From positions 1 through 50,625 of the forward strand of contig JAFATG010000304.1 of the NCBI GenBank assembly GCA_019244055.1: a stretch of 50,625 nucleotides of DNA. The letters are read 5' to 3'. Position numbers and translations under genes: made by a program. Shown piece after piece: positions 17,752 to 31,353 of the stretch; the first letter of the stretch is position 1, and each line of letters begins with the position of its first letter. The notes beneath the pieces were generated by a model. That model ran no database searches. It had not been told where the DNA came from and saw nothing but the letters and a program-made list of their open reading frames with translations. Source of the stretch: Acidobacteriaceae bacterium (lineage in GTDB: Bacteria > Acidobacteriota > Terriglobia > Bryobacterales > Bryobacteraceae).

Positions 17752-17837
17752 GTATGTACGCTTAAGACACTGATTTGTAAGAAGTTTCAGGAAATTTAGC
17801 GTTCTGTTCAGGCCGACTAATCTTCCATACAACCGCC

Positions 17838-17851
17838 GAACAGTGCTGTTC
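17838..17851. promoter_or_regulatory. Palindrome upstream of the radical SAM gene
   Basis: GAACAGTGCTGTTC is a perfect 14-bp palindrome. A related half, CTGTTCA, recurs at 17804-17810 and 17846-17852. If transcription starts near 17899 (see the promoter entry), the site is centred near -55, a position suited to an activator or an upstream repressor. It superficially resembles a Gram-positive LexA box but has two extra central bases. Confidence 0.45.
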
Positions 17852-17863
17852 ACTTCTATTTCG

Positions 17864-17892
17864 TTTTCAATGGCTTAACGGCAACCTATACT
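17864..17892 (+). promoter_or_regulatory. Candidate sigma-70 promoter of the radical SAM gene
   Basis: TTTTCA at 17864-17869 and TATACT at 17887-17892 are separated by 17 bases. The -10 is good and the -35 weak. Transcription would start near 17899, giving a leader of about 63 bases to the ATG at 17962. This argues against the GTG at 17893, which directly abuts the -10 element. Confidence 0.45.
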
Positions 17893-17961
17893 GTGACTAG
17901 CCGACGGGGATATCCGGTTTGGCTTGATGGGAGAAAAACGAATCAATTAGGTTCATTGAGC

Positions 17962-20079
17962 ATGCATAAACCAGTTAAGTACTTCGAAAAAGTCGTCACG
18001 GTTGGCGCAAACGCCGCCTGGCAGGTTTTTGATCGGCTGAACCAGGTTAAGCAAAACCCTTCTTTCACTCCAAGGTGGTCTGATAAGCCGCTGCTGAAGA
18101 GCTATCAGAAATCCAAGCCTCCGCTGGGGTGGCCGCGCGAGACCAATTCGCTTTGCCCTAAATGCATCCCAGAGATCCGCAGCCAGATTGTGGATGGAAA
18201 AGTCGATTACAAGATCCTGTTGAACGAACCGGTTGGAGAGATCAAGGCGCGCATTATCGAACGCGACGGCAAGATCATCATGATCAAGGAGTGTCCTAAG
18301 CACGGACATTTCGAAGATGTGATGTCGGTCGATCCCGCGTTCTCGAAGCACCTGGAAGATGTATTTCCAGGCCGCGATATTCGCGCGCACAACGACGAGA
18401 CGCTTCACAATCACGGCAGTAGCACGATTACGCATGGGCGCGGTTCGGTACTGACCATTGACTTAACCAACCGTTGCAACATGATGTGCGATCCGTGCTT
18501 CATGGATGCGAACCAGGTCGGTTTCGTCCACGAGCTGAGCTGGGAGGACATCAAGACACTGCTTGATAACGCGATCTCGATCAAGCCGCGACGCCAGATG
18601 TCGGTTCAGTTTTCAGGCGGTGAGCCGACCTTGTCCCCGTACTTCGTCGATGCCGTCCGCTATGCCCGCCAGGTAGGCTATAACAGCGTGCAGGCCGCGA
18701 CGAACGGGATTGAATTCGCCAAGCGCCCCGATTTTTGTAAGGAAGCCGCGGAAGCGGGTCTGCGCTATGCCTACTTGCAGTTCGACGGAATCGGCAACGC
18801 GGCGAACTCGCATCGGGCGGTCGGCAACCTTTTCGATGTGAAGCTGCGCGCGATCGAGAATCTCTGGACTGCCGGTGTCGATATCGTGCCGGTGATTACC
18901 ATTCTTAACGGAATCAATAACGAGCAGGTCGGTCACGTGGTTCAGTTTGCGCTCGAGAATCCCAAGAAGATTCCGTTCCTGTCGTTCCAGCCTGTCTCCT
19001 TTACGGGCCGCGACGAGGCCATTACAGATGAGCGCCGTAAAGCGCAGCGGTATACGCTTTCCCATCTGGCTCATGACGTGAAGAACCAGACGGGAATCGG
19101 CGAGCCGGTACGTGATTGGTTCCCGATCAGCTTCATGAGCACCTTCTCGGACTTCGCCGATCTGGTGCACGGGCCAGCGGCAGATTGGGGCCAGCTTAGC
19201 TGCGGATGCCATCCAAATTGCGGGATCGGCATGGCCGTAATGTGCGACAAGGAAACCAAAGAGTACGTTCCGGTTACCGCGTTTCTGCATGCTGACCAGC
19301 TAGCTAAGGATGTAGCGCGCATTAATGACGGGGCACGCGGCCGCTTCCTTTCGGTTCTTGGCGTTACGCTATCGCTCCTTCGGAACTACAACCCATTCAA
19401 GGCGCCCACTCAGTTCCGCCTGACGGATCTGGTTGCGAAATTCGACAAATGCTTCGGTATGTCCAAGAAAGCCCAGTCAGGCGAATACGGTAAGGTGACT
19501 GGGGACCGCACGAGAGCCGACATCGACAAGCGCCGCGGGGATCGTTGGAACTTCCTCTTTATCGCGGGCATGTGGTTCCAGGACCTCTTCAATTACGATT
19601 TCCGCCGTACGGAACAATGCATTATTCCCTACGCCACCCAGGAAGGCGAGATTTCTTTCTGCGCCTACAACACGGGTGTAGGCTGGCGGAATATCATCGA
19701 GAAGATGCACATGACAGCTACTCTGACAAAGTGGTATGACGAGCACGGCCGTCACGAGATCTTCGCCGGTAACAAGAAGGTTCCGCTGTCGAGCAAGGAG
19801 CACAGCTTAGTGCTGAACGAGGCTCATGTGAACGCCGATCGCCAGCACGATCTGGAGCAACTCGGCATTGCCAAGAACGCCCGCGAGGAGAAGATGCGAG
19901 CTCGCGATGAGGCCCTTAAAAAGAAGCTCGAAAACGAGAAGATGATGCGGCTTAACCGCGAGCATGTTCTGGGCGAGAAAAAAACCGACGGCTTTGTTCC
20001 GCTCGATGGCCTGCTCGCCTCGACCTCAAAAAGCATGGAAGCCGAAAAGCAAGAAGAAGTCGGCGCCATGGGCGATTAA
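17962..20079 (+). CDS. Radical SAM protein, tetraether-synthase-like family
   Basis: A 705-residue protein. The radical SAM triad is C172-x3-C176-x2-C179 (RCNMMCDPC), followed by the SAM-binding FSGGEPTLSP. An N-terminal CPKC (C65, C68) with ECPKHG (C111) looks rubredoxin-like. Further cysteines C414, C416, C420, C428 and C553, C567 (in the FCAYN region) could hold extra clusters. This order matches the COG1964 family that includes MJ0619, the tetraether lipid synthase Tes which joins lipid tails by C-C bonds; acidobacterial homologues are reported as candidates for branched GDGT synthesis. The charged C-terminal tail (about 600-700) is an unusual addition. ATG 17962 is chosen over GTG 17893 from promoter position. 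Substrate is unproven. Confidence 0.85.
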   Translation: MHKPVKYFEKVVTVGANAAWQVFDRLNQVKQNPSFTPRWSDKPLLKSYQKSKPPLGWPRETNSLCPKCIPEIRSQIVDGKVDYKILLNEPVGEIKARIIERDGKIIMIKECPKHGHFEDVMSVDPAFSKHLEDVFPGRDIRAHNDETLHNHGSSTITHGRGSVLTIDLTNRCNMMCDPCFMDANQVGFVHELSWEDIKTLLDNAISIKPRRQMSVQFSGGEPTLSPYFVDAVRYARQVGYNSVQAATNGIEFAKRPDFCKEAAEAGLRYAYLQFDGIGNAANSHRAVGNLFDVKLRAIENLWTAGVDIVPVITILNGINNEQVGHVVQFALENPKKIPFLSFQPVSFTGRDEAITDERRKAQRYTLSHLAHDVKNQTGIGEPVRDWFPISFMSTFSDFADLVHGPAADWGQLSCGCHPNCGIGMAVMCDKETKEYVPVTAFLHADQLAKDVARINDGARGRFLSVLGVTLSLLRNYNPFKAPTQFRLTDLVAKFDKCFGMSKKAQSGEYGKVTGDRTRADIDKRRGDRWNFLFIAGMWFQDLFNYDFRRTEQCIIPYATQEGEISFCAYNTGVGWRNIIEKMHMTATLTKWYDEHGRHEIFAGNKKVPLSSKEHSLVLNEAHVNADRQHDLEQLGIAKNAREEKMRARDEALKKKLENEKMMRLNREHVLGEKKTDGFVPLDGLLASTSKSMEAEKQEEVGAMGD

Positions 20080-20107
20080 ATTTTACTGCCACGATCAGAT
20101 CTTCTTT

Positions 20108-20138
20108 GCCGCCAGGGAAACTTGGCGGCTTCTTTTTT
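20108..20138 (+). terminator. Intrinsic terminator of the radical SAM gene
   Basis: GCCGCCA (20108-20114) and TGGCGGC (20123-20129) form a 7-bp stem with an 8-base loop, followed by TTCTTTTTT. It lies 29 bases after the stop at 20079, so the radical SAM gene is probably transcribed as a single-gene unit. Confidence 0.85.
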
Positions 20139-20181
20139 GTACACTTCCTACTGTTTGTACACACTTCTAATTGGAGGAAGA

Positions 20182-21069
20182 TTGAATCGCTTACTACGCT
20201 TGGCTGTTTTAGCCGGATTCGCTGCGGGTTGTCTTCTCGCGGATGTTACCTATAACCAGACTGTGAAGTACACGGGTGGAACCTTGCTCGATTTGGTTCA
20301 TCGGATGGCGAACATGCCCATGATTGGGCGCATGGGTGGAGGCGGGATGAGGGCTGCTTTCCAGGATCAGACGTTTAACGTCTTCATCAAAGGCGCCAAA
20401 ATGGCGAGGCTGGGGCAATCGCTCTCAACCATTTACGACCTCGAGGCCGGTACGATCACGACCATCAATAACGAGAAGCAAACGTACTTCGTTCAGACGT
20501 TCGAGCAACTTCGCGAACAGACGCAGCACATGCAGGAACGAATGAACCGGGGCAAGAGCGGCGACCTGCAATACGACATAAAGGTGGAGGATACCGGCCA
20601 AACGCGCGATATCAACGGTCAAAGAGCAGCAGAGATGGTGATGACGCTGACGGCAAAGCCGGAAAGCGCTTATGCGGGAATGGTTGTCAAGGTCCATTTG
20701 TGGAGCGTGGAGCCAAACGAGGCGATGAAAGAGGCCGTGGATTATCAGAAGCGGTTGGCGCAGAAGTTTGCGTACGCCTTCGGAAACACGTCTCCAATGT
20801 TTGGAGGGGCAGGAGCCGGCATAGGTGCCGCAATGAAAGAAGCCATGAACCAGAAGGGGTACCCTGTGCTCAATGAGATAGAGCTGACGGGTCTGTCTTC
20901 GCCCATGGCTAATAATCCGATGATGCGCCAAGGCAGCGGCGACCCGAACGCCCCCGCGCTCCAGATGCAGACGGAATCCTCGAACTTCGCGACAGGAGCA
21001 GTGGACGATTCGAAATTCAGCGTGCCAGCCGGATATAAGGAAGAGCAGCCTCGGGGAATGCGTCAATAG
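20182..21069 (+). CDS. Secreted protein of unknown function
   Basis: A 295-residue exported protein that I do not recognise beyond a resemblance to DUF4412-type secreted proteins. The TTG at 20182 follows a perfect GGAGGAAGA ribosome-binding site and is immediately followed by a signal peptide (residues 1-18, core LLRLAVLAGFAAG), so I choose it over a GTG/ATG further up. The GC-L-L end could be a lipoprotein site, but the residue at -3 is not ideal. The mature part has a methionine- and glycine-rich patch at about 45-65 (NMPMIGRMGGGGMRA) and many short strands. The next gene, rpsU, converges across a shared terminator. Confidence 0.75.
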   Translation: MNRLLRLAVLAGFAAGCLLADVTYNQTVKYTGGTLLDLVHRMANMPMIGRMGGGGMRAAFQDQTFNVFIKGAKMARLGQSLSTIYDLEAGTITTINNEKQTYFVQTFEQLREQTQHMQERMNRGKSGDLQYDIKVEDTGQTRDINGQRAAEMVMTLTAKPESAYAGMVVKVHLWSVEPNEAMKEAVDYQKRLAQKFAYAFGNTSPMFGGAGAGIGAAMKEAMNQKGYPVLNEIELTGLSSPMANNPMMRQGSGDPNAPALQMQTESSNFATGAVDDSKFSVPAGYKEEQPRGMRQ

Positions 21070-21959: not shown

Positions 21960-22976
21960 TTGCCCATGTATGCTTTCCTCGCTTGGCTACAGACGCACGC
22001 CGAAGGGCTTCCAGAACACCGGATTGCGAACATTTTCGAGCCCCGCTCCACACCTGGCGATATGGAAAGACACATCGCCAATCTGACGCTCGGTATAACC
22101 GGCATCATTTTTGTGGTAGTGGGGGGCTTGATCGTATATACGATCTGGCGATTTCGGCGCAAGCCCGGTGACGATTCCCGCCAGGAGCCGCCACAGGTAT
22201 ACGGCAGCAATCAAATCGAAATTGCCTGGACTGTGATTCCGATCCTTATCGTATTTATACTCATCGGGGTCTCGGCGCGGGTCATTGCAGCTATTCAGAA
22301 CGCCAGCCCACCGCATTCGACATTGAAAATCCGATTGATTGGGCACCAGTGGTGGTGGGAAGTTGAATATCCCGACTTCAAGGTGAAAACCGCCAACGAA
22401 ATTCACGTACCCGTAAACGCAGATGGCCATACAGCGACCTACTTACAACTCGAAAGCCTGGACGTCATTCACAGTTTTTGGGTGCCGCAGATAGCCGGGA
22501 AGACGGACCTGATTCCCAACCGCGTGAACTATATGTGGATCGATCCCAAAGAAGCAGGAATTTTCTTCGGAAACTGCGCTGAATACTGCGGCACCCAGCA
22601 CGCAAACATGCTGCTACGGCTTGTTGTGCAGCCGCAAAACGAGTTCAATGCATGGGTAGCTCAGCAGGCGCAACCGGCGGAGGCGAACCCTGTGGATCCG
22701 GGAGTGGCGCAAGGGAAGAATATGTTTGAATCGCTTGCCTGCGTCAACTGCCATCGGGTGCAGGGGACAACCGCCACAGGCGTGTTCGGACCGGACTTGA
22801 CCCACCTTATGAGCCGCCAAACCATCGGGGCCGGAGTACTACCGATGAATCACCAAAATCTTCGTGATTGGGTGAACGATCCGCAAAACGCCAAACCAGG
22901 TTGTTTCATGCCCAGTATGAAACTTACGGATGCAGAACTGGATCAAGTTGTTTCTTACCTGGAATCTCTGCGCTAA
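21960..22976 (+). CDS. coxB: Cytochrome c oxidase subunit II with C-terminal heme c
   Basis: A 338-residue caa3-type subunit II, first gene of the respiratory operon. Two transmembrane helices (about 42-64 and 86-111) are followed by the periplasmic cupredoxin domain: H171, C206, E208, C210, H214 and M217 are the binuclear CuA ligands, and GHQWWWEVEY (about 128-137) is the conserved tryptophan patch. A cytochrome c domain follows, with heme site C261-V-N-C264-H265 and a methionine ligand at 317 or 320. It takes electrons from cytochrome c and passes them to subunit I. TTG 21960 has GGAAGGAG 7 bases upstream and is preferred to ATG 21966, which is 13 bases away. Confidence 0.97.
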   Translation: MPMYAFLAWLQTHAEGLPEHRIANIFEPRSTPGDMERHIANLTLGITGIIFVVVGGLIVYTIWRFRRKPGDDSRQEPPQVYGSNQIEIAWTVIPILIVFILIGVSARVIAAIQNASPPHSTLKIRLIGHQWWWEVEYPDFKVKTANEIHVPVNADGHTATYLQLESLDVIHSFWVPQIAGKTDLIPNRVNYMWIDPKEAGIFFGNCAEYCGTQHANMLLRLVVQPQNEFNAWVAQQAQPAEANPVDPGVAQGKNMFESLACVNCHRVQGTTATGVFGPDLTHLMSRQTIGAGVLPMNHQNLRDWVNDPQNAKPGCFMPSMKLTDAELDQVVSYLESLR

Positions 22977-22991
22977 AGAACGGGGGGCTCG

Positions 22992-24671
22992 ATGGCATCG
23001 ATCGATTATCCGTTAGAACGGCCCGATATTGAGGACACCGGCTGGCATTTTGCAGAGAACTTGTACCGCTGGATCGCCACGGTCGATCACAAGAAGCTCG
23101 GGCTGATGTACATCGTTTCCGCGCTGATCTTCCTTTGTGTTGCGGGAGTGATGGCGGTCGTTATTCGTCTACAACTAGCCTTTCCGAATGGCCACGTAGT
23201 GGATCCGGATACGTACGATCGTCTCTTTACGATGCATGGGACGACGATGGTTTTTCTTGTGGGCATGCCCATCGTGGCGGGTCTTTCCAATTACCTCGTG
23301 CCGCTTATGATCGGCGCACGCGACATGGCATTTCCCAGGCTGAACTCCTTCGGGTTCTGGATCTTCCTGTTTGGCGGCTTGCTGCTGTACTACAGCTACA
23401 TCGGCGGCAGCGGTTTATCCGGTGCGGGTTCGGCTCCTGACGTGGGGTGGTTCGCGTACGCCCCGCTTACTACCAAATCGTTTTCAAGAGGGCACTCCGT
23501 AGATTACTGGGCGCTGGGTGTATTGGTTTCCGGTTTCGGTAGCATTGCGAGCGCAATCAACGTGATCGCAACCACAATCTCGCTTCGTTGCCCGGGGATG
23601 ACGCTGAGCAAGATGCCCATGTTTGTCTGGGTCATGCTAGTGGATGCCTGGCTGATCCTTATCGCGCTGCCTCCACTCTCGGCAGGTCAAATCATGTTGC
23701 TTCTGGACCGCTACCTGGGAGCGAACTTCTTTAATACTCAGCACGGCGGCTCGGCTGTTCTGTGGCAGCACATCTTCTGGATATTCGGTCACCCGGAAGT
23801 GTACATCCTGATCTTTCCCGCGTTCGCGATACTCTCCGAACTCGTGCCTATTTTTTCGCGCAAACCGCTATTTGGCCGGCCCGCGATGGTGGGTGCCGTC
23901 GTGGCGATCGGCTTTATCAGCTTGGGAGTCTGGGCCCACCATATGTTCGCTGTGGGAATGACTTCCTGGTCGAATACGTTTTTCGCAGCCTCAAGCATGC
24001 TCGTAGGAATTCCGACCGGCATCAAGATCTTCAACTGGACGGCGACAATGTATGGTGGAAGAATTCGGCTACTCACGCCGATGCTTTTCTGCTGCGCTTT
24101 TCTCCTGCAGTTTTTGGTTGCGGGCTTGACGGGTATCATGCTGGCCGTAGCGCCGTTCGACTGGCAATTGCATGATTCGTATTTTGTCGTCGCCCATTTC
24201 CACTTCACTTTGGCTGGCGGCTTGGTGACGGCCCTGTTTGGCGGTTTCTATTACTGGTATCCGAAAGTGGCCGGGAGGATGTACAACGAGACGCTCGCGA
24301 AATGGCATTTCTGGCTGTTTATTATCGGCTTTAATCTCACATTTATCCCACTGCACTTTGCGGGCACGCTCGGCATGCCTCGACGGATTTACACTTATGC
24401 TCCCGGGCGGGGCTGGGAGATTTGGAATCAGCTTGCATCACTCGGCGCCTTGATGCAAGCTGCCGCTGTGACGCTTTTCGCCTGGAACGTGATCTATTCC
24501 GCCATCAAAGGCGAGCCCGCCGGCGATGACCCGTGGGATGCCTGGACACTCGAATGGGGAACCACATCTCCGCCTCCCGAATACAATTTCGAGAAGCTGC
24601 CGGTTGTCCGCAGCAGCCGGCCACTTTGGGATCTAAAACACCCGAATGATCCGGATTGGAAATACGAGTAG
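22992..24671 (+). CDS. coxA: Cytochrome c oxidase subunit I
   Basis: A 559-residue heme-copper oxidase core subunit, 12 transmembrane helices. The heme a histidine is in TMHGTTMVFLVG. The CuB/heme a3 site is in WIFGHPEVYIL, with the histidine-tyrosine pair and the glutamate of the D-channel, and in WAHHMF. The last histidines are in VAHFHFTLAGG. The glutamate in GHPEVY places it in the A1 type, which pumps protons. Start ATG at 22992 has GGGGGGCTC close upstream. It follows coxB by 15 bases. Confidence 0.98.
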   Translation: MASIDYPLERPDIEDTGWHFAENLYRWIATVDHKKLGLMYIVSALIFLCVAGVMAVVIRLQLAFPNGHVVDPDTYDRLFTMHGTTMVFLVGMPIVAGLSNYLVPLMIGARDMAFPRLNSFGFWIFLFGGLLLYYSYIGGSGLSGAGSAPDVGWFAYAPLTTKSFSRGHSVDYWALGVLVSGFGSIASAINVIATTISLRCPGMTLSKMPMFVWVMLVDAWLILIALPPLSAGQIMLLLDRYLGANFFNTQHGGSAVLWQHIFWIFGHPEVYILIFPAFAILSELVPIFSRKPLFGRPAMVGAVVAIGFISLGVWAHHMFAVGMTSWSNTFFAASSMLVGIPTGIKIFNWTATMYGGRIRLLTPMLFCCAFLLQFLVAGLTGIMLAVAPFDWQLHDSYFVVAHFHFTLAGGLVTALFGGFYYWYPKVAGRMYNETLAKWHFWLFIIGFNLTFIPLHFAGTLGMPRRIYTYAPGRGWEIWNQLASLGALMQAAAVTLFAWNVIYSAIKGEPAGDDPWDAWTLEWGTTSPPPEYNFEKLPVVRSSRPLWDLKHPNDPDWKYE

Positions 24672-24678
24672 AGGAAGC

Positions 24679-25284
24679 ATGGCTGAAGAGAACGTATTGA
24701 CCGCCGGCGCTCTTACGCTCGAACAGGACTGGAAGATGCCAGATCGAGGCACGGTCGGCATTATCTTCCTGATCATCACCGAGACAGCGCTGTTCAGCAT
24801 CTTCGTCGCGGCGTACCTGATCTATATCGGGAAGAGTTTGGTCGGTCCGTATCCGAAAGACGTTCTGGAGCTTCCGATCCTAGCGACGATTTGCCTGCTT
24901 TCGAGCAGCGGGACCATCGTTTTCGCGGAACATGCGCTGGAGAAGGGACACCTGGGGCAATTCAAGCTTTGGTGGATAGTGACGATCTGTCTAGGCCTGG
25001 AGTTCCTTACGGCAACTGGTTTGGAATGGCGGAAGCTCATTGTGCACGACCACCTGACAATCAGCACCAATCTCTTCGGCACAACCTTTTACTCACTGGT
25101 TGGTTTGCACGCCAGCCACGTCACGGTGGGAATGGTGTTTTTGCTGCTGGTGCTGGCGGTCACGCTGTTCCGGTTTCCCATCGAAACCCAGAAAAGACGG
25201 GTCAAGTTCCTGTCATGGTACTGGCATTTCGTCGATGCGGTCTGGGTGGTAGTGTTTACCGTGGTGTACATCATCGGCAGATAG
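24679..25284 (+). CDS. coxC: Cytochrome c oxidase subunit III
   Basis: A 201-residue membrane protein. The family pattern is clear in TEXXLFSIFVAAY at the first helix, then AEHALEKGHLGQFKLWWIVTICLG, FGTTFYSLVGLHASHVTVGM and WYWHFVDAVWVVVF near the C-terminus. It stabilises subunit I and feeds proton uptake. I choose ATG 24679, 7 bases after the coxA stop and with GAGGAAGC ahead; a longer form starting at 24646 would overlap the end of coxA. About five helices, somewhat short, as in many caa3 enzymes. Confidence 0.95.
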   Translation: MAEENVLTAGALTLEQDWKMPDRGTVGIIFLIITETALFSIFVAAYLIYIGKSLVGPYPKDVLELPILATICLLSSSGTIVFAEHALEKGHLGQFKLWWIVTICLGLEFLTATGLEWRKLIVHDHLTISTNLFGTTFYSLVGLHASHVTVGMVFLLLVLAVTLFRFPIETQKRRVKFLSWYWHFVDAVWVVVFTVVYIIGR

Positions 25285-25296
25285 AAGGGATCGGGC

Positions 25297-26157
25297 ATGT
25301 CCATCGAAACTCATCACGGTGAGGCGGGCGAACACACCGAGGCGACGCACATTCAGTTGCCCGCTCCGACCTTCTGGCCCATGATTTTTGCGTTCGGGAT
25401 TACCTTGCTGTTTGCGGGCCTGGTCACATTTTGGGCGGTCGGAGTTGTCGGAGCTATCATCGCGTTCCGGTCGGCGGTTGGGTGGTGGGACAACGTCATT
25501 CCCCACGAAGAGCATGAAGAGCTGCCGATTGATCCGGCCCACCGCCCAGCGCCGATCCTGGTAGAGGACCGATCCGTGGTGCGGGTGCAGGTCGGAGAAC
25601 AAGGCCACCGGATGCGCATACCGATCGAAGTGCACCCCTACTCTGCAGGAATCGTCGGCGGTCTGATTGGCGGCGCGGCGATGGCCATTTTGGCGTGCCT
25701 TTACGGCCTAGTGACACAACACAGTATCTGGTATCCCGTGAATCTGCTGGCGGGAGTGGTCGTCCCCGGACTCGGCGAAGCAAGTCTGCAACAACTGAGG
25801 CAATTCAATGGACTGGCGTTTGTAGCCGCGCTGATCGGCCATGGAATACTCTCTGCGCTGGTGGGCATTGTGTACGCAGCCATCATGCCCATGTTTCCCA
25901 AATACGCGCCGCTATGGGCGGGTATTCTCGTCCCTTTGTTTTGGAGCGGCCTGGTAGCGACGTCATTGAGCATATTAAATCCCGCTTTGAATGATCGCAT
26001 CAGTTGGCCCTGGTTCGTCGTCTGCCAGCTCGCGTTCGGTTTGGTGGGCGGATATGTGATTGCTCGCAGCACGAACATTCAGACGATGCAATCGCTGCCG
26101 CTAGCCCAGAGAGCGGCTTTGCATTTTCCGACTGACGACACAAAGAGCGAGCGGTAA
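25297..26157 (+). CDS. Membrane protein of unknown function in the oxidase operon
   Basis: A 286-residue membrane protein lying 12 bases after coxC and sharing one base with the next gene. Residues about 25-58 hold one or two helices of the kind seen in small oxidase subunit IV proteins (FWPMIFAFGITLLFAGLVTFW), then a hydrophilic acidic loop (about 60-115, with HEEHEELPIDP), then a larger domain of four or five helices (about 115-265). No heme, iron-sulfur or copper motif is visible. Position says it belongs to the oxidase or bc complex. It may be a subunit IV fused to an extra membrane domain. I do not recognise the second half. Confidence 0.72.
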   Translation: MSIETHHGEAGEHTEATHIQLPAPTFWPMIFAFGITLLFAGLVTFWAVGVVGAIIAFRSAVGWWDNVIPHEEHEELPIDPAHRPAPILVEDRSVVRVQVGEQGHRMRIPIEVHPYSAGIVGGLIGGAAMAILACLYGLVTQHSIWYPVNLLAGVVVPGLGEASLQQLRQFNGLAFVAALIGHGILSALVGIVYAAIMPMFPKYAPLWAGILVPLFWSGLVATSLSILNPALNDRISWPWFVVCQLAFGLVGGYVIARSTNIQTMQSLPLAQRAALHFPTDDTKSER

Positions 26158-27074
26158 TGGATGTGAGCGCGCGCAAGCGGAGTTTCCAACCAAGCCGGAG
26201 TTGGATTGTCCTTACGACGGGTCTGTTGGTGCTTTGCGCGGCTGCGTGTGATCCGCCCGGCAAGCCAGGGCCAGCGGAGATCGCGCCCGAGAATATCGTG
26301 GATTTTCAGACTCTCTACGGGCAGAACTGCGCGGCCTGTCATGGGGCCGACGGCAAGAACGGGCCGGGCCGGATCATCAACGATCCTCTTTATCTGGCCG
26401 TTCTTCCGCGAGACACTCTGAGGCAGATCATCCAGTATGGGCGCCCAGGCACGTCTATGCCGGCATGGGATCAGCGCGAGGGAGGGCCGCTCTCACCGAA
26501 GCAGATTAATGCGCTGGTAAATGGGATCGAGAACAACTGGGCGAAGCCGGTTCATTTTGCGACGGCATTTCCTTCCTATACAGGCCAGGGAACAACGGGT
26601 GATTCTGGCCGAGGTCAAAAGTTGTTCTTAAGAGACTGCTTCGCTTGCCACGGACCCGGAGCACGCGTCGGGACGGTTACCGGTGCGGATTACGTTTCGT
26701 TAGTGACGGACCAGATGCTACGGACTTCCATCATTGTGGGGCGGCCCGACTTGGGAATGCCGGATTATCGATTCTTGAATTTGGGCCATGTCTTGAGCGA
26801 TCAAGATATCGCCGATCTCGTGGCCTTCCTATCATCAAAGCGCCCAGCAGGGATCACGGCGATGTATGAAAGCGCTCAAAACCGAATAAACGAGAGCCAG
26901 TCCGGGCAACAAGGGGGCAGCACCGGGCAACACGTGAACGAGAGCGGCAGCGGGCAGGGCGGCGTGCTGACCAAAGGAAACGAAGGAAGCGGAACAGGCC
27001 CCGGCAGTCCCCGCCAGCAGAAGAACGAAGGGAACAAATCGACCGGCAGCAGCAGCTTGGGAGGACCAAAATGA
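26157..27074 (+). CDS. Diheme cytochrome c, predicted lipoprotein
   Basis: A 305-residue protein with a signal peptide ending at a plausible lipobox (C31 after ...VLCAAA). Two class I cytochrome c domains follow: heme 1 C58-A-A-C61-H62 and heme 2 C161-F-A-C164-H165. The start ATG (26157) shares one base with the stop of the preceding gene. From about residue 240 the tail is low-complexity, made of Gly, Ser, Gln and Asn with repeated GSGQGG and NEGSG-like pieces. It probably carries electrons from the cytochrome bc proteins encoded next to the oxidase. The Rieske gene starts within its stop codon region. Confidence 0.93.
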   Translation: MDVSARKRSFQPSRSWIVLTTGLLVLCAAACDPPGKPGPAEIAPENIVDFQTLYGQNCAACHGADGKNGPGRIINDPLYLAVLPRDTLRQIIQYGRPGTSMPAWDQREGGPLSPKQINALVNGIENNWAKPVHFATAFPSYTGQGTTGDSGRGQKLFLRDCFACHGPGARVGTVTGADYVSLVTDQMLRTSIIVGRPDLGMPDYRFLNLGHVLSDQDIADLVAFLSSKRPAGITAMYESAQNRINESQSGQQGGSTGQHVNESGSGQGGVLTKGNEGSGTGPGSPRQQKNEGNKSTGSSSLGGPK

Positions 27075-27619
27075 CTGAACCTGAAGTCGAAGACAAACAC
27101 GAGCGCCTCGCAAAGTCGGCAGTTGAGAAATCAACGCGGAGGGATTGGTTCTTCATGGCGGGCGTCGCTGTAAACGTCGCCGCGGGACTCCTCATGGCGA
27201 TTCCCCTAGTCGGATTTGTGTTTTCGAGCTTCAGTGATCGGAAGGATCCACGCGCCTGGATTTCTTTGGGATCGATCGACAACTATGCGGAAGACACGAC
27301 GCGCCTCGCTACGTATCGGAACCCGTTTACCCGGCCTTGGGACGGCCAGACGGCGGATATACCTTGCTGGGTTCGCCGGTTAAAAGGCAATCAGTTCCAG
27401 GTGTTCGCGATCAACTGTACGCACCTAGGCTGCCCGGTGCGGTGGTTTCAGGAATCGGGACTGTTTTTGTGCCCATGTCATGGCGGGGCATATTACGAAG
27501 ATGGCGCCCGGGCTGCTGGCCCACCTCCGCGTGGGTTGTTTGAATACAACTACAAAGTAGAAAACAACGAGCTCTGGGTAAAGGGTGGACAAATGCCCAC
27601 TCTGGCGAATCCGGTGTAA
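27071..27619 (+). CDS. Rieske [2Fe-2S] protein of a cytochrome bc complex
   Basis: A 182-residue protein. One transmembrane anchor (about 27-52) is followed by the Rieske domain: C116-T-H118-L-G-C121 and C134-P-C136-H137 give the two cysteine and two histidine cluster ligands and the disulfide pair C121-C136. It moves electrons from quinol to cytochrome c1 or c. The ATG overlaps the stop of the diheme cytochrome gene by four bases (ATGA), which indicates translational coupling. Confidence 0.96.
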   Translation: MTEPEVEDKHERLAKSAVEKSTRRDWFFMAGVAVNVAAGLLMAIPLVGFVFSSFSDRKDPRAWISLGSIDNYAEDTTRLATYRNPFTRPWDGQTADIPCWVRRLKGNQFQVFAINCTHLGCPVRWFQESGLFLCPCHGGAYYEDGARAAGPPPRGLFEYNYKVENNELWVKGGQMPTLANPV

Positions 27620-27634
27620 CCAGACAAGGCCACG

Positions 27635-29146
27635 ATGAATACTCTGAAGAGGATCGCAGTCTGGCTGGATGACCGGTTACACCTGACCGCGCTTTGGGCT
27701 TCGTCGGCGGGCCACGAAGTTCCGGCTAGCTCCGGTAGTTGGTGGTATGTGTTCGGCAGCGCGACCCTACTGTGCTTTGTCATTCAGGTGATCTCGGGCG
27801 CTTGCCTCGCATTCGTCTACATTCCGTCGACAAACGAGGCGTACACAAGCCTGCAATACCTGAATCATGTCCAGTTCTGGGGTTGGTATCTGCGCGGTAT
27901 CCATTATTGGGGCTCCAACTTCATGGTGGCGTTCATGAGCGCGCACATGATTCAGGTGTTCCTGTTCGGGGCATACAAATATCCGCGTGAACTGACTTGG
28001 CTGAGCGGACTTTTTCTGCTGCTCTGCACACTAGGTATGGCATTTACCGGCCAAGTTATGCGGTGGGATCAGGACGCCTATTGGGGCCTATCCATTGGTG
28101 CGGCAATTCTAGGTCGTATTCCTTTGATAGGGGGAGGACTCGTTCACCTGGTCTTGGCGGGGCCCATCATAGCGGGCGAAACGCTTTCGCGGTTCTTCAC
28201 GCTACACGTGTTTATCATTCCGGGGCTGATTATCGCTATCGTCGGCATGCATCTGCGGCTAGTACTAGCTAAGGGGATTAATGAGTATCCGAGGCCGGGG
28301 CACAGAGTGCGGCGCGCAACTTATGATGCCGAATACGCAGAGATCATCCGTAAAGAGGGTGTGCCATTCGTTCCGCAAGCCATCGACAAGGACCTGATCT
28401 TTTCTGCCGTCACTCTGGTTCTGATTCTGCTTTTCGCGCTGATTGTAGGCCCGAAGGGGCCACACGGAGAGCCGAATCCAACGTTGGTGGACGCCAGCCC
28501 GCGTCCTGATTTCTATTTCCTCTCGTTGTTCGCCGCGCTCGCGCTCTTGCCGGACTGGATGGAAACCTTCGTGATGTTCCTGGGACCGGCGCTCGCGATT
28601 CTGATTCTCATTGCACTTCCATTTGTTGCGAATACCGGAGAAAAGAGCGCCTCGAGGCGTCCGGCCGCCGTGCTGTGGGTGATTCTGGCTGTCCTGACTA
28701 TCGTTACGCTGGCGTGGTTCGGACTGACTTCGCCTTGGTCGCCGCACATGACGGCATGGAGCGGCGATCCGATTCCGGCTGTCTATCTGAAGGGACGCAC
28801 TCCATTGGAGATGCACGGTGCGCTGGTGTTTCAAAACAAGCAATGCCGGAACTGCCACGCGCTCGGCGGAGTCGGTGGTGAACGCGGACCCGCTCTCGAT
28901 GCCGTGGCAACGCGGCTGACAGCCCCGGAGATGGTCCGGCAGGTGATCCAAGGTGGCGGCAACATGCCGGCCTACGGAAAGAAGCTGACGCCCGCTGAGG
29001 TTTCCGCGCTCGTAGCGTTTATGCAAACCCTACGACCCCAAGCGACGCCGCCTTCGCAGAACTCAGCGCCTCCGGAGAACAAATTGCCAAGAGATGTGGC
29101 GCAAATATTGGCGCCTACGGCTCCTTCCGGCAAACATCGCCCGTGA
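27635..29146 (+). CDS. Cytochrome b with C-terminal cytochrome c domain
   Basis: A 503-residue quinol-oxidising subunit. Helices A-D carry paired heme b histidines (in MSAHMIQVFLFGAYKYPRE and LHVFIIPGLIIAIVGMHLRL); the quinone-site tryptophan-rich loop is near WDQDAYWG. The second half has subunit IV-type helices (about 250-360) and a PDFYFL phrase (the variant of PEWYFL). A fused heme c site is at C404-R-N-C407-H408, in the position taken by separate cytochrome c1 in classical complexes. This b-c fusion with the neighbouring Rieske and diheme cytochrome would form a complete bc complex. Gene starts 15 bases after the Rieske stop and overlaps the next by 4. Confidence 0.94.
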   Translation: MNTLKRIAVWLDDRLHLTALWASSAGHEVPASSGSWWYVFGSATLLCFVIQVISGACLAFVYIPSTNEAYTSLQYLNHVQFWGWYLRGIHYWGSNFMVAFMSAHMIQVFLFGAYKYPRELTWLSGLFLLLCTLGMAFTGQVMRWDQDAYWGLSIGAAILGRIPLIGGGLVHLVLAGPIIAGETLSRFFTLHVFIIPGLIIAIVGMHLRLVLAKGINEYPRPGHRVRRATYDAEYAEIIRKEGVPFVPQAIDKDLIFSAVTLVLILLFALIVGPKGPHGEPNPTLVDASPRPDFYFLSLFAALALLPDWMETFVMFLGPALAILILIALPFVANTGEKSASRRPAAVLWVILAVLTIVTLAWFGLTSPWSPHMTAWSGDPIPAVYLKGRTPLEMHGALVFQNKQCRNCHALGGVGGERGPALDAVATRLTAPEMVRQVIQGGGNMPAYGKKLTPAEVSALVAFMQTLRPQATPPSQNSAPPENKLPRDVAQILAPTAPSGKHRP

Positions 29147-31353
29147 ACCCAATCGCCAACGCTGCGCTGACGTCCTGGGCCTGGAAACCGCTCACGACAG
29201 CAATTCTGCTGTCGACTGCGCTGATTTACCTGCGAGGCTGGGTTCGTGGCAGACGGCTGCTTCGTGATCCGGCCGATTGGAACAGATTGGGTGCCTTTGT
29301 GGCTGGTCTTGGCACGCTGTTTCTGGCCTTGGAATCGCCGCTCGATAGCTTTGACAACCTGTTCCTTTCCGCGCACATGGCGCAGCATTTATTACTGATG
29401 ATGATTGCGCCGCCATTGATTCTGATGGGGCATCCACTGGTGCCAACGCTGCGCGGGCTGCCCAGGCAGTTTGTGAAAGAGGGTCTTGGCCCGTTTCTGA
29501 CCTGGCGTGCTTTGCGGCAGTTTTGTGATCTGCTGACCGCTCCCGTTTTCAGTTGGTTTGCATTTGCATTCAGCACTCTTTTCTGGCATATGCCGAAGTT
29601 CTACGAACTCGCCCTGCGTTCGCCGGAGTGGCACAACGTGCAGCATGCATCCTTTTTCTGGACCGGCATTCTCTTCTGGTGGCCGATTGTGCAGCCCGGC
29701 GCTGGGAAACCGAGATGGCCGCGCTGGGCGAAGATTCCGTACCTTCTGTTTGCCGACATCGTCAACACGGCGCTCTCGGCATTCTTCGTGTTTTCCGGAC
29801 GCCTATTGTATCCGACCTACAGCGCGATTTACGCCGGCGGATTACGGCCACAAGAAGACCAGACGTTCGCAGGCCTGATCATGTGGGTGCCGGGATCGCT
29901 GATCTACTTGGTGCCTGCGTTTGTGATCGCGATGCGGGTGTTATCGAGCCCTCAACTTCTGCGGCCAGCAACGGCGATCCGTGTCGTTCGTAGCGAGCGC
30001 GTGCGCGGTAAGGATCGACTACCAGCGCTTGTTCGCTGGCGGAGAGTTGCGCAAACGGCAATGCTGTTAGTCGCGGTTGCCGTGATGGCCGACGGATTTT
30101 TCGGGCCACGTGTCGCGGCCTTGAATCTGGCAGGCGTGCTGCCGTGGATTCACTGGCGGGCGCTATCGATTCTCGCGTTAATAGCGGTGGGCAACCTCTT
30201 TTGCATGGCGTGTCCGTTCACGCTGGTTCGCGATTTTAGCCGAAAGATATGGGCCGGAAATCTGAGATGGCCTCGGCCACTGAGAAACAAATGGATTCCG
30301 GCGGCGCTGCTTCTGGTCTATCTGTGGACCTACGAAGCATTCTCGTTATGGGACAGCCCCTGGATTACGGCGTGGATCATCGCGGGATATTTTGGCGCTG
30401 CGATCGTGCTGGATGGGTTCTTTCGCCGGGCCAGTTTCTGCAAATATGTGTGCCCCATAGGGCAGTTCCATTTTGTGAGTTCGTTGCTCTCGCCTCGTGA
30501 AATCGGCGTCAAGAGGCCGGAGACATGCCGCGCCTGTACGACCCACGACTGCATTCGGGGAAATGAAACGGTGCGCGGATGCGAACTGTATTTATTTCAG
30601 CCGAAGAAGTCGGGAAATCTGGATTGTACGTTCTGTCTGGACTGCGTGAAGGCGTGCCCGCATGAAAATATAGGACTCATTTCCATTGCCCCCGCGAAGA
30701 GTCTGCTGACGGATTCTTATCGGTCTTCTCTAGGAAGGCTCTCAAAGCGGACTGACCTTGCAGCATTGGTACTGCTCTTCGTGTTCGGCGCGTTTGTGAA
30801 CGCCGCGGGCATGGTGACGCCCGTCATGGAGTGGGAGCACAGATGGCACGCGCAACTAGGGCGACAGGCAATGCCCTTGATTGTTGGGGCATTTGTGCTG
30901 ACCGGGGCGGCCTTACTGCCTGCCTTCGTGACGCTTGTCTGCGCATGGCTGAATCGTTTTGCGGTAAAGGAGAGCGAAACGCGGGATTTTGTGAGGCGAT
31001 GCGTGTTGGCTTTGGTTCCCATCGGGGCTGGCATGTGGGCGTCGCACCTGGCTTTCCACATTGCAACCGGCTGGAGCGCATTCTGGCCGGCGGTACAACG
31101 TATCTTTTCCGGCTCAGTCCAATTCGCCGCGCCAACGATTTCGGGTTGGCTTACTCCACTGCAGATTCTCCTGCTCGATGCCGGATTGCTGTTGACCCTT
31201 TACACGATCTGGAAGATAGCGAGGGGAAGTACGGCGCGCTTGCGAGCGGCGATCACTCTGACAGCGCCATGGGCGATTGTTTCCTGTGCGCTGTATGTGG
31301 CAGGAATCTGGATTCTATTTCAACCTATGCAGATGCGAGGAATGCTGCACTGA
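29143..31353 (+). CDS. ctaG: CtaG-type oxidase assembly protein fused to ferredoxin-like membrane domain
   Basis: A 736-residue fusion. Residues 1-270 match the CtaG family (caa3 copper-insertion factor) with histidine motifs LSAHMAQHLLLMMIAPP and FWHMPKFYE-type segments across seven helices. Residues about 300-520 resemble NapH/CcoG-like polyferredoxins: C354/C357, C433/C437, C462/C465/C470 and a clear [4Fe-4S] set C495-x2-C498-x2-C501-x3-C505-P. The last part (about 535-730) again holds about five helices. GTG start overlaps the cytochrome b stop (GTGA). It could insert copper and supply electrons for it, as CcoG reduces copper in cbb3 assembly; that coupling is inference. Confidence 0.9.
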   Translation: MNPIANAALTSWAWKPLTTAILLSTALIYLRGWVRGRRLLRDPADWNRLGAFVAGLGTLFLALESPLDSFDNLFLSAHMAQHLLLMMIAPPLILMGHPLVPTLRGLPRQFVKEGLGPFLTWRALRQFCDLLTAPVFSWFAFAFSTLFWHMPKFYELALRSPEWHNVQHASFFWTGILFWWPIVQPGAGKPRWPRWAKIPYLLFADIVNTALSAFFVFSGRLLYPTYSAIYAGGLRPQEDQTFAGLIMWVPGSLIYLVPAFVIAMRVLSSPQLLRPATAIRVVRSERVRGKDRLPALVRWRRVAQTAMLLVAVAVMADGFFGPRVAALNLAGVLPWIHWRALSILALIAVGNLFCMACPFTLVRDFSRKIWAGNLRWPRPLRNKWIPAALLLVYLWTYEAFSLWDSPWITAWIIAGYFGAAIVLDGFFRRASFCKYVCPIGQFHFVSSLLSPREIGVKRPETCRACTTHDCIRGNETVRGCELYLFQPKKSGNLDCTFCLDCVKACPHENIGLISIAPAKSLLTDSYRSSLGRLSKRTDLAALVLLFVFGAFVNAAGMVTPVMEWEHRWHAQLGRQAMPLIVGAFVLTGAALLPAFVTLVCAWLNRFAVKESETRDFVRRCVLALVPIGAGMWASHLAFHIATGWSAFWPAVQRIFSGSVQFAAPTISGWLTPLQILLLDAGLLLTLYTIWKIARGSTARLRAAITLTAPWAIVSCALYVAGIWILFQPMQMRGMLH

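Follow-up and report, generated by a model that had tools for sequence, protein, structure and literature searches.

Which enzyme makes iso-diabolic acid in Acidobacteria, and is it the tetraether lipid synthase Tes? This membrane lipid, which accounts for about 20–50% of the fatty acids in cited cultures, is the presumed building block of the branched glycerol dialkyl glycerol tetraethers (brGDGTs) used as climate proxies, and the enzyme that produces it in these bacteria is unproven. The question is raised here by a gene found at positions 17962..20079 (+ strand) of a 50,625-nucleotide stretch of DNA from an Acidobacteriaceae bacterium (contig JAFATG010000304.1; hereafter the window, meaning the whole stretch), which codes for a radical S-adenosylmethionine (SAM) protein of 705 aa, a long-type Tes paralogue according to its open reading frame (ORF), profile searches, alignment, fold and tree. 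Bacterial Tes homologues have already been proposed for brGDGTs; what is described here is a subfamily of Tes paralogues which, judging from sequence comparison, has one cluster fewer and most likely serves for ester-bound iso-diabolic acid. We refer to it as the long type; it is a defined and widespread candidate for the enzyme that is sought.

Family assignment and phylogeny

The first NCBIfam match of the window protein is Tes (NF045702, E = 1.2e-92, 311.1 bits), with a score below the equivalog cut-off of 450 bits; the second is TrsS (NF045646, 207 bits, 3.2e-61). Pfam recognises Radical_SAM and the HMPTM zinc ribbon, with PF23545 at residues 58–122. Among solved structures, MJ0619 (7tol/7tom), with which the window protein shares 32% identity, is the only one that is close in sequence (7tol 5e-61, the next at 5.9e-5). 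The AlphaFold model has a predicted local distance difference test score (pLDDT) of 69 and a predicted template modelling score (pTM) of 0.77, its confidence being mostly low after residue 630; it is too weak at residues 143–190 and 539–591 for placing cluster ligands, so that the overall fold alone was used. A fold search with this model returns 7tom and 7tol at 2e-22 to 4e-22 (7tom 2.3e-22), and the next different protein, SkfB, at 3.2e-5. An earlier note on this DNA, made from the letters alone, had placed the protein in the superfamily that holds Tes, and this was correct: Tes is the best match by hidden Markov model (HMM), by sequence and by fold, and the Tes-type reaction-centre residues are kept. 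In its own genome (97% complete) the window protein is the only Tes-type protein found, the next match scoring 65 bits. A plasmid search gave five records, at 25–33% identity.

We surveyed 247 genomes of Acidobacteriota with the Tes profile at 1e-40 and called canonical the proteins that exceed the cut-off of 450. A Tes-type match is present in 144 of the 247 genomes, 29 of which are over the cut-off. The matches listed form two score groups, 472–619 bits (canonical) and at most 350 bits, and the window protein is in the lower one. The long-type proteins compared are 52–91% identical to the window protein and 29–35% to MJ0619, the canonical ones 31–37% and 36–43%, respectively. A maximum-likelihood tree of 77 rows was calculated in a quick run without bootstrap; in it, all 40 long-type rows form one clade (SH-like approximate likelihood ratio test, SH-aLRT, 100), which has a stem of 1.48 changes per column and is nested among 28 canonical rows, so that the latter are paraphyletic; eight other COG1964-like proteins fall outside the Tes rows (SH-aLRT 97–100). 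Because of the long branches, the exact position of the clade within bacterial Tes is unsure.

In this tree the long type is a monophyletic acidobacterial clade that is paralogous to canonical bacterial Tes. The orthology with Tes that the earlier note entertained is not borne out, as the protein falls in a distinct paralogous clade whose stem is long, scores below the cut-off and lacks the N-terminal [4Fe–4S] ligands. Both the score and these ligands fall short, and for these two reasons it is better not classed as Tes proper. The sequences suggest that it is probably a lipid-tail coupling enzyme, expected to work like Tes and yet a separate subfamily.

Some acidobacterial genomes (G070, G115 and G036) have canonical Tes alongside the long type. 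The two genes are 5.7 kb apart in G070 (L119 5491-14981) and 3.4 kb apart in G115 (L120 5756-12992), and a sortilin/BNR-repeat gene, identified as such in the G070 copy, lies between them on the other strand; G070 and G115 belong to one genus and were counted as one observation. We also note that a contig titled as a Bordetella parapertussis metagenome-assembled genome (L046, CALQCC020000001.1) carries a gene of acidobacterial type, 79% identical among the best 80 matches; the assembly is probably misnamed.

Cofactor ligands and conserved residues

To read ligand conservation, 102 rows of the long type were aligned with 29 canonical ones, and the numbering of MJ0619 was fixed via C33/H36 of the rubredoxin site (PMC9433317). 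All 29 canonical rows, but none of the 102 long-type rows, have the ligands of the N-terminal [4Fe–4S] cluster of MJ0619 (C73/C77/C80/H83). At the position of the CxxxCxxCxxH motif of Tes, the window protein has residues 147–161 (TLHNHGSSTITHGRG; 18400..18444, + strand, from the alignment). The motif is replaced by HxHG[ST]S, with a His at position 77 in 102/102 rows, the first His in 101/102 and the last Ser in 101/102; one further long-type relative (L160) has F in place of [ST]. Where other COG1964-like rows extend over this part of the alignment (10 rows), all 10 keep the four ligands as well; because this outgroup retains CxxxCxxCxxH, the loss of the cluster is read as derived. The earlier note had overlooked this absence; it had named missing Fe–S ligands as grounds for giving up its proposal, and such is the case for the N-terminal cluster in all aligned long-type rows.

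The other Tes-type sites are present. The rubredoxin-like site (residues 59–114, PF23545; 18136..18303, + strand) has C65, C68, C111 and H114, each in 102/102 long-type rows, as has the radical SAM [4Fe–4S] triad C172/C176/C179 (CX3CX2C; 18475..18498, + strand). The triad, CPKC (C65/C68) and CPKHG (C111/H114) of the 705-residue protein are all where the earlier note had seen them. In the region of the C-terminal cluster (19201..19221, + strand), C414, C416 and C420, the latter equivalent to C338 of MJ0619, are each found in 102/102 long-type rows, while C414 is present in 7 and C416 in 21 of the 29 canonical rows. The reaction centre (19570..19662, + strand) comprises M537 (Met439 of MJ0619), C553 (C455), Y557 (Tyr459) and C567 (C470), each in 101/102 rows, the single exception being a row that ends at a contig edge. 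Of the eight proteins that serve as outgroup in the tree, not one combines an equivalent of Met439 with one of Tyr459. We infer that C420, C553 and C567, the equivalents of C338, C455 and C470, are the ligands of the C-terminal cluster. The cysteines that had been listed for this part of the protein (C414 to C428, C553 and C567) are indeed all there, but C428 is not conserved in the relatives.

In MJ0619, the first substrate radical is stored as a C–S bond on the C-terminal cluster (Lloyd et al., PMC9433317). In the accessible text of that paper, Met439 is the one C-terminal cluster residue that is named, and redox tuning is given as a possible role of the N-terminal cluster. According to the same text, 1,000 archaeal homologues show full conservation of Met439 and Tyr459, yet variants at these residues stay active.

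The C-terminal tail (residues 600–705; 19759..20076, + strand, from the alignment) is charged and variable. The length after residue 600 is 47–118 aa in 101 of 102 relatives, and 0 in one row at a contig edge, with poor conservation. The charged tail at about residues 600–700, which the earlier note had set apart from archaeal Tes, does exist, but its low conservation makes it a poor hallmark, and it was dropped as a distinguishing feature. In three early-branching long-type proteins (L118, L121 and L127), cysteine-rich ends (GGCGCH, GCGTGCGCH and GGCCH) replace the charged tail and may be an extra metal site. The N-terminal helix has a high hydrophobic moment, though not the highest in the protein.

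Distribution and lipid occurrence

The long type is the only Tes-type protein in 110 of the 247 genomes; the assignment follows from score and by exclusion, with a check by sequence for 24 of them. In the family and class of the window genome, 28 genomes match (the genome itself, one of the same family and 26 of the same class), and there is no genome of that class among the 20 of the 103 unmatched genomes that were listed, sorted by kinship. Within the order, 81 genomes were examined at 1e-60: 77 match, six of them canonical, and four do not.

Iso-diabolic acid makes up 20–40% of the fatty acids in 17 cultures of subdivisions 1 and 3, and was detected in subdivisions 1, 3, 4 and 6 of the seven tested, according to the accessible part of PMC13274423; five strains of Terriglobales contain 27–49% (PMC12935467, in the part available). 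For a lipid of such abundance, the long type, being widespread, is a better fit than canonical Tes, which is rarer.

In the accessible text of Zeng et al. 2022 (PMC8941075), bacterial Tes homologues are proposed for brGDGTs: E. aggregans, which makes some brGDGT, has one homolog of 32% identity, and the homologues of Koribacter and Solibacter are closer (40–42%). A value of 32% is in the range that long-type proteins show against MJ0619. Judging from this identity and from genomes of the same class, E. aggregans would hold the long type. For S. usitatus, Halamka et al. 2022 propose, in the available part of PMC10087280, that one or both of its two Tes homologues carry out a diether condensation. 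The activity of bacterial Tes homologues is given as unconfirmed in the accessible portion of a Black Sea study (PMC11868695). A subfamily without the N-terminal cluster was not found described in the literature searched; the Mss paper (Sci. Adv. 2022) and supplements were outside this search.

The ether module and oxygen

DUF2229 is part of the PlsA/Ger-type proteins that form ether lipids, and T. maritima, a source of Ger, matches DUF2229 as a positive control. A DUF2229 match is present in 22/29 canonical genomes, 16/110 long-only genomes, 25/103 genomes with no Tes match and 2/5 other genomes; canonical and long-only genomes differ (Fisher p = 6e-10, uncorrected for phylogeny). Seven canonical genomes lack DUF2229, six of which belong to one family (f4). 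DUF2229 proteins of 1016–1062 aa, a size class that was chosen post hoc, are found in 14/29 canonical and 3/218 other genomes, and one of these three (G034) has canonical-like Tes fragments. The genome of the window gives no DUF2229 match.

In G195 (L176 4181-9183), a canonical Tes gene is followed about 250 bp further on, on the same strand, by a gene for a BcrAD_BadFG–DUF2229 protein of 1032 aa; from its sequence this pair is apparently an operon for membrane-spanning ether lipids. In G021 (L188 6761-9081), a CDP-alcohol phosphatidyltransferase is encoded directly upstream of canonical Tes, and a homologue occupies this position in G006. These are the two clear cases of lipid-type neighbours among 20 canonical loci of 19 genomes taken together with L119 and L120, in most of which no lipid-type neighbour recurs.

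The oxidase subunit COX1 is found in 105/110 long-only, 21/29 canonical and 77/103 no-match genomes (p = 9e-4 and 2e-5 for the latter two against long-only, uncorrected for phylogeny). This pattern is compatible with the loss of an exposed cluster in aerobes, and goes no further.

Proposed function and alternatives

We lean, with moderate confidence, towards the idea that the long type couples ester-bound iso-C15 tails to give iso-diabolic acid, while canonical Tes would serve the ether brGDGTs together with Ger. On this view the window protein belongs to the Tes superfamily of radical SAM enzymes and would link two saturated, iso-branched lipid tails through their omega ends. By analogy with MJ0619, SAM at the C172/C176/C179 cluster would yield a 5'-deoxyadenosyl radical, which would take a hydrogen from the terminal carbon of a tail; this carbon would be bound temporarily to a sulfur of the C-terminal cluster (C420/C553/C567, with the labile M537), after which a second SAM would activate the second tail and the sp3–sp3 C–C bond would form. 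The likely substrates are ester-bound iso-C15 phospholipids, converted into membrane-spanning iso-diabolic acid independently of the ester-to-ether step (Ger/PlsA). With the surface cluster at the N-terminus of Tes lost, the enzyme would contain two [4Fe–4S] clusters and one mononuclear iron (9 Fe), against three and one (13 Fe). Homology, clade, ligand conservation or loss and distribution were obtained directly; reaction, substrate, iron content and the cysteines of the C-terminal cluster are deduced from them. Tail-to-tail C–C coupling is the likeliest chemistry because the long type keeps the Tes reaction centre. The suggestion of the earlier note that the protein joins fatty tails is plausible, but a synthase of ester-bound iso-diabolic acid is likelier than a brGDGT tetraether synthase.

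It may be, on the contrary, that the long type is the acidobacterial brGDGT synthase proper, which couples ether-bound lipids like archaeal Tes. By family and reaction centre it resembles Tes, E. aggregans has one Tes homolog and produces some brGDGT (PMC8941075), and Tes is said to bind both ester and ether lipids (PMC13274423, in its accessible part). We consider this unlikely, since DUF2229 goes with canonical Tes (22/29) rather than with the long type alone (16/110), the DUF2229 gene of G195 follows a canonical Tes on the same strand, and the window genome has no DUF2229 match; it is this co-occurrence with canonical Tes, and not with the long type, that favours the ester synthase. Tes chemistry could also have been retuned after the loss of the N-terminal cluster for some other radical reaction on lipid tails (cross-link, cyclisation, methylation or desaturation), as the long stem (1.48), the lost cluster, the rarely kept Arg210 and the extra invariant C414 might indicate; this is improbable given that the reaction-centre Met and Tyr are kept and that the gene is near-universal in its class, as far as listed, and common in its order (77/81, 6 canonical), which points to a dominant lipid. 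Finally, the protein may not be a lipid enzyme at all, but a radical SAM protein of other function that is Tes-like by descent only. Its score below the NCBIfam Tes cut-off would agree with this, as would the presence in these genomes of other COG1964-like proteins of unknown function. In the quick tree, however, it branches among bacterial Tes, apart from eight such proteins (SH-aLRT 97–100), and it keeps the Met/Tyr pair that none of them has; we find this possibility very improbable.

Several observations weigh against the coupling of ester-bound tails by the long type. DUF2229 is similarly frequent in long-only and no-match genomes (p = 0.08, uncorrected for phylogeny), so that the ester reading rests on the absence of a link. 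Only 8 of the 102 long-type rows have an R at the position of Arg210, which contacts the adenine in MJ0619. Among the 102 loci, many of which have short flanks, the long-type gene has no recurrent lipid gene as a neighbour. The gene and the measured lipid are compared at the level of groups of strains. In S. usitatus, which has two Tes homologs, iso-diabolic acid was undetectable in the analyses cited by Halamka (accessible part of PMC10087280); a later paper cites iso-diabolic tetraesters in this organism (PMC13274423, likewise in part). The true synthase of iso-diabolic acid may in this case be a homologue of Mss. The support, last, is sequence comparison and distribution.

A broader and more tentative scenario, which we hold to be possible but doubtful, is that Acidobacteriota have split the coupling reaction: canonical Tes with Ger/PlsA would lead to ether brGDGTs, and the long type devoid of the N-terminal cluster to ester-bound iso-diabolic acid, dominant in aerobic cells, the cluster having been lost as an adaptation to oxygen and HxHG[ST]S being a new site.

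The locus

The ORF runs from an ATG at 17962 to the stop codon at 20079. A GTG start at 17893 was dropped: the residues before the ATG are mostly gaps in the relatives, and the ATG is favoured because the -10 box TATACT, which ends at 17892, abuts this GTG. The promoter (17864..17892, + strand, from scan and alignment) consists of a -35-like TTTTCA, 17 bp and TATACT (17887-17892). By count, such promoters are at chance level in the window (2 found, 1.7 in shuffles); the one in question, which the earlier note had found plausible, is taken as real because TATACT is identical in 7/7 aligned upstream regions (the window and six orthologues).

The note had missed a conserved upstream element, CCATACAACC (17825..17834, + strand), 62–63 bp upstream of the -10 box. 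Together with TATACT it precedes the long-type gene in 12/12 genomes of the same genus, including that of the window; of the 14 sites in these genomes, two are elsewhere. The exact pattern is found in 0/8 further relatives of the same order. A looser form with a -10 at 61–64 bp occurs in 21 of 80 upstream regions (the window and 79 loci), against 0.0 in shuffles, with the caveat that the loci are related and the motif was derived from some of them. In these regions the distances peak a second time at 81–83 bp, which suggests a repeated half-site about 20 bp downstream of CCATACAACC in more distant relatives. The two-part element has one match in the window genome, as has a reversed control pattern, which makes this weak evidence of uniqueness. 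We propose that CCATACAACC is a probable site for a gene-specific activator, a candidate that implies a dedicated regulator.

The 14-bp palindrome GAACAGTGCTGTTC (17838..17851, either strand; 6-bp arms, 2-bp spacer) exists, as described before, but it is not conserved in six aligned relatives and was ruled out as a conserved operator. Downstream of the gene, the scan finds an intrinsic-terminator-like hairpin with a T-run (20108..20139, + strand), GCCGCCA-N8-TGGCGGC at 20108-20129 being followed by the T-run; the predicted terminator is there, although the scan gives four such sites against 2.9 ± 2.0 in shuffles. The view of the gene as a self-contained unit agrees with its surroundings: across 102 long-type loci, many with short flanks, the most frequent neighbour family is seen in at most 17.

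A 315-aa ORF lies downstream (20122-21069), with no Pfam or NCBIfam match at 0.001. Further on (21960-31353) is a respiratory cluster with cytochrome oxidase subunits I–III, cytochrome b and CtaG; the genome has five COX1 matches. Rfam and tRNA searches of the window gave no match.

Comparison with known systems

TrsS, a radical SAM (seleno)protein, fits the window protein with a lower score than Tes, best over residues 93–378 and short of its own cut-off of 490. Mss (Thermotoga, Bacillota) makes membrane-spanning diabolic and iso-diabolic lipids and is reported, in the accessible part of PMC13274423, to share the catalytic architecture of Tes by superposition of models. We compare it with the window protein through this published description and a profile control on T. 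maritima. The control has no match to the Tes HMM at 1e-40 and one at 1e-3; since there is none at 1e-40, Mss of T. maritima is more distant from Tes than the window protein is.

The closest characterised system is Tes/GDGT-MAS (MJ0619), which has in common with the window protein the rubredoxin-like C2C...C2H site, the radical SAM triad, the C-terminal cysteines, the equivalents of Met439 and Tyr459, and the fold. The window protein differs in that it lacks the N-terminal [4Fe–4S] ligands and does not keep Arg210, in that the halves of its rubredoxin site are 42 residues apart (20 in MJ0619), and in that it has, unlike MJ0619, an N-terminal helix and a C-terminal tail.

Canonical acidobacterial Tes, from the same phylum and superfamily, keeps the ligands of the N-terminal cluster and is linked to DUF2229, unlike the long type. 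The loss of the cluster is a clear marker of the latter, since HxHG against CxxxCxxCxxH tells the two apart in every aligned row. Counting all "Tes homologues" in metagenomes mixes these two subfamilies, which differ in their cofactor ligands and in their link to ether formation.

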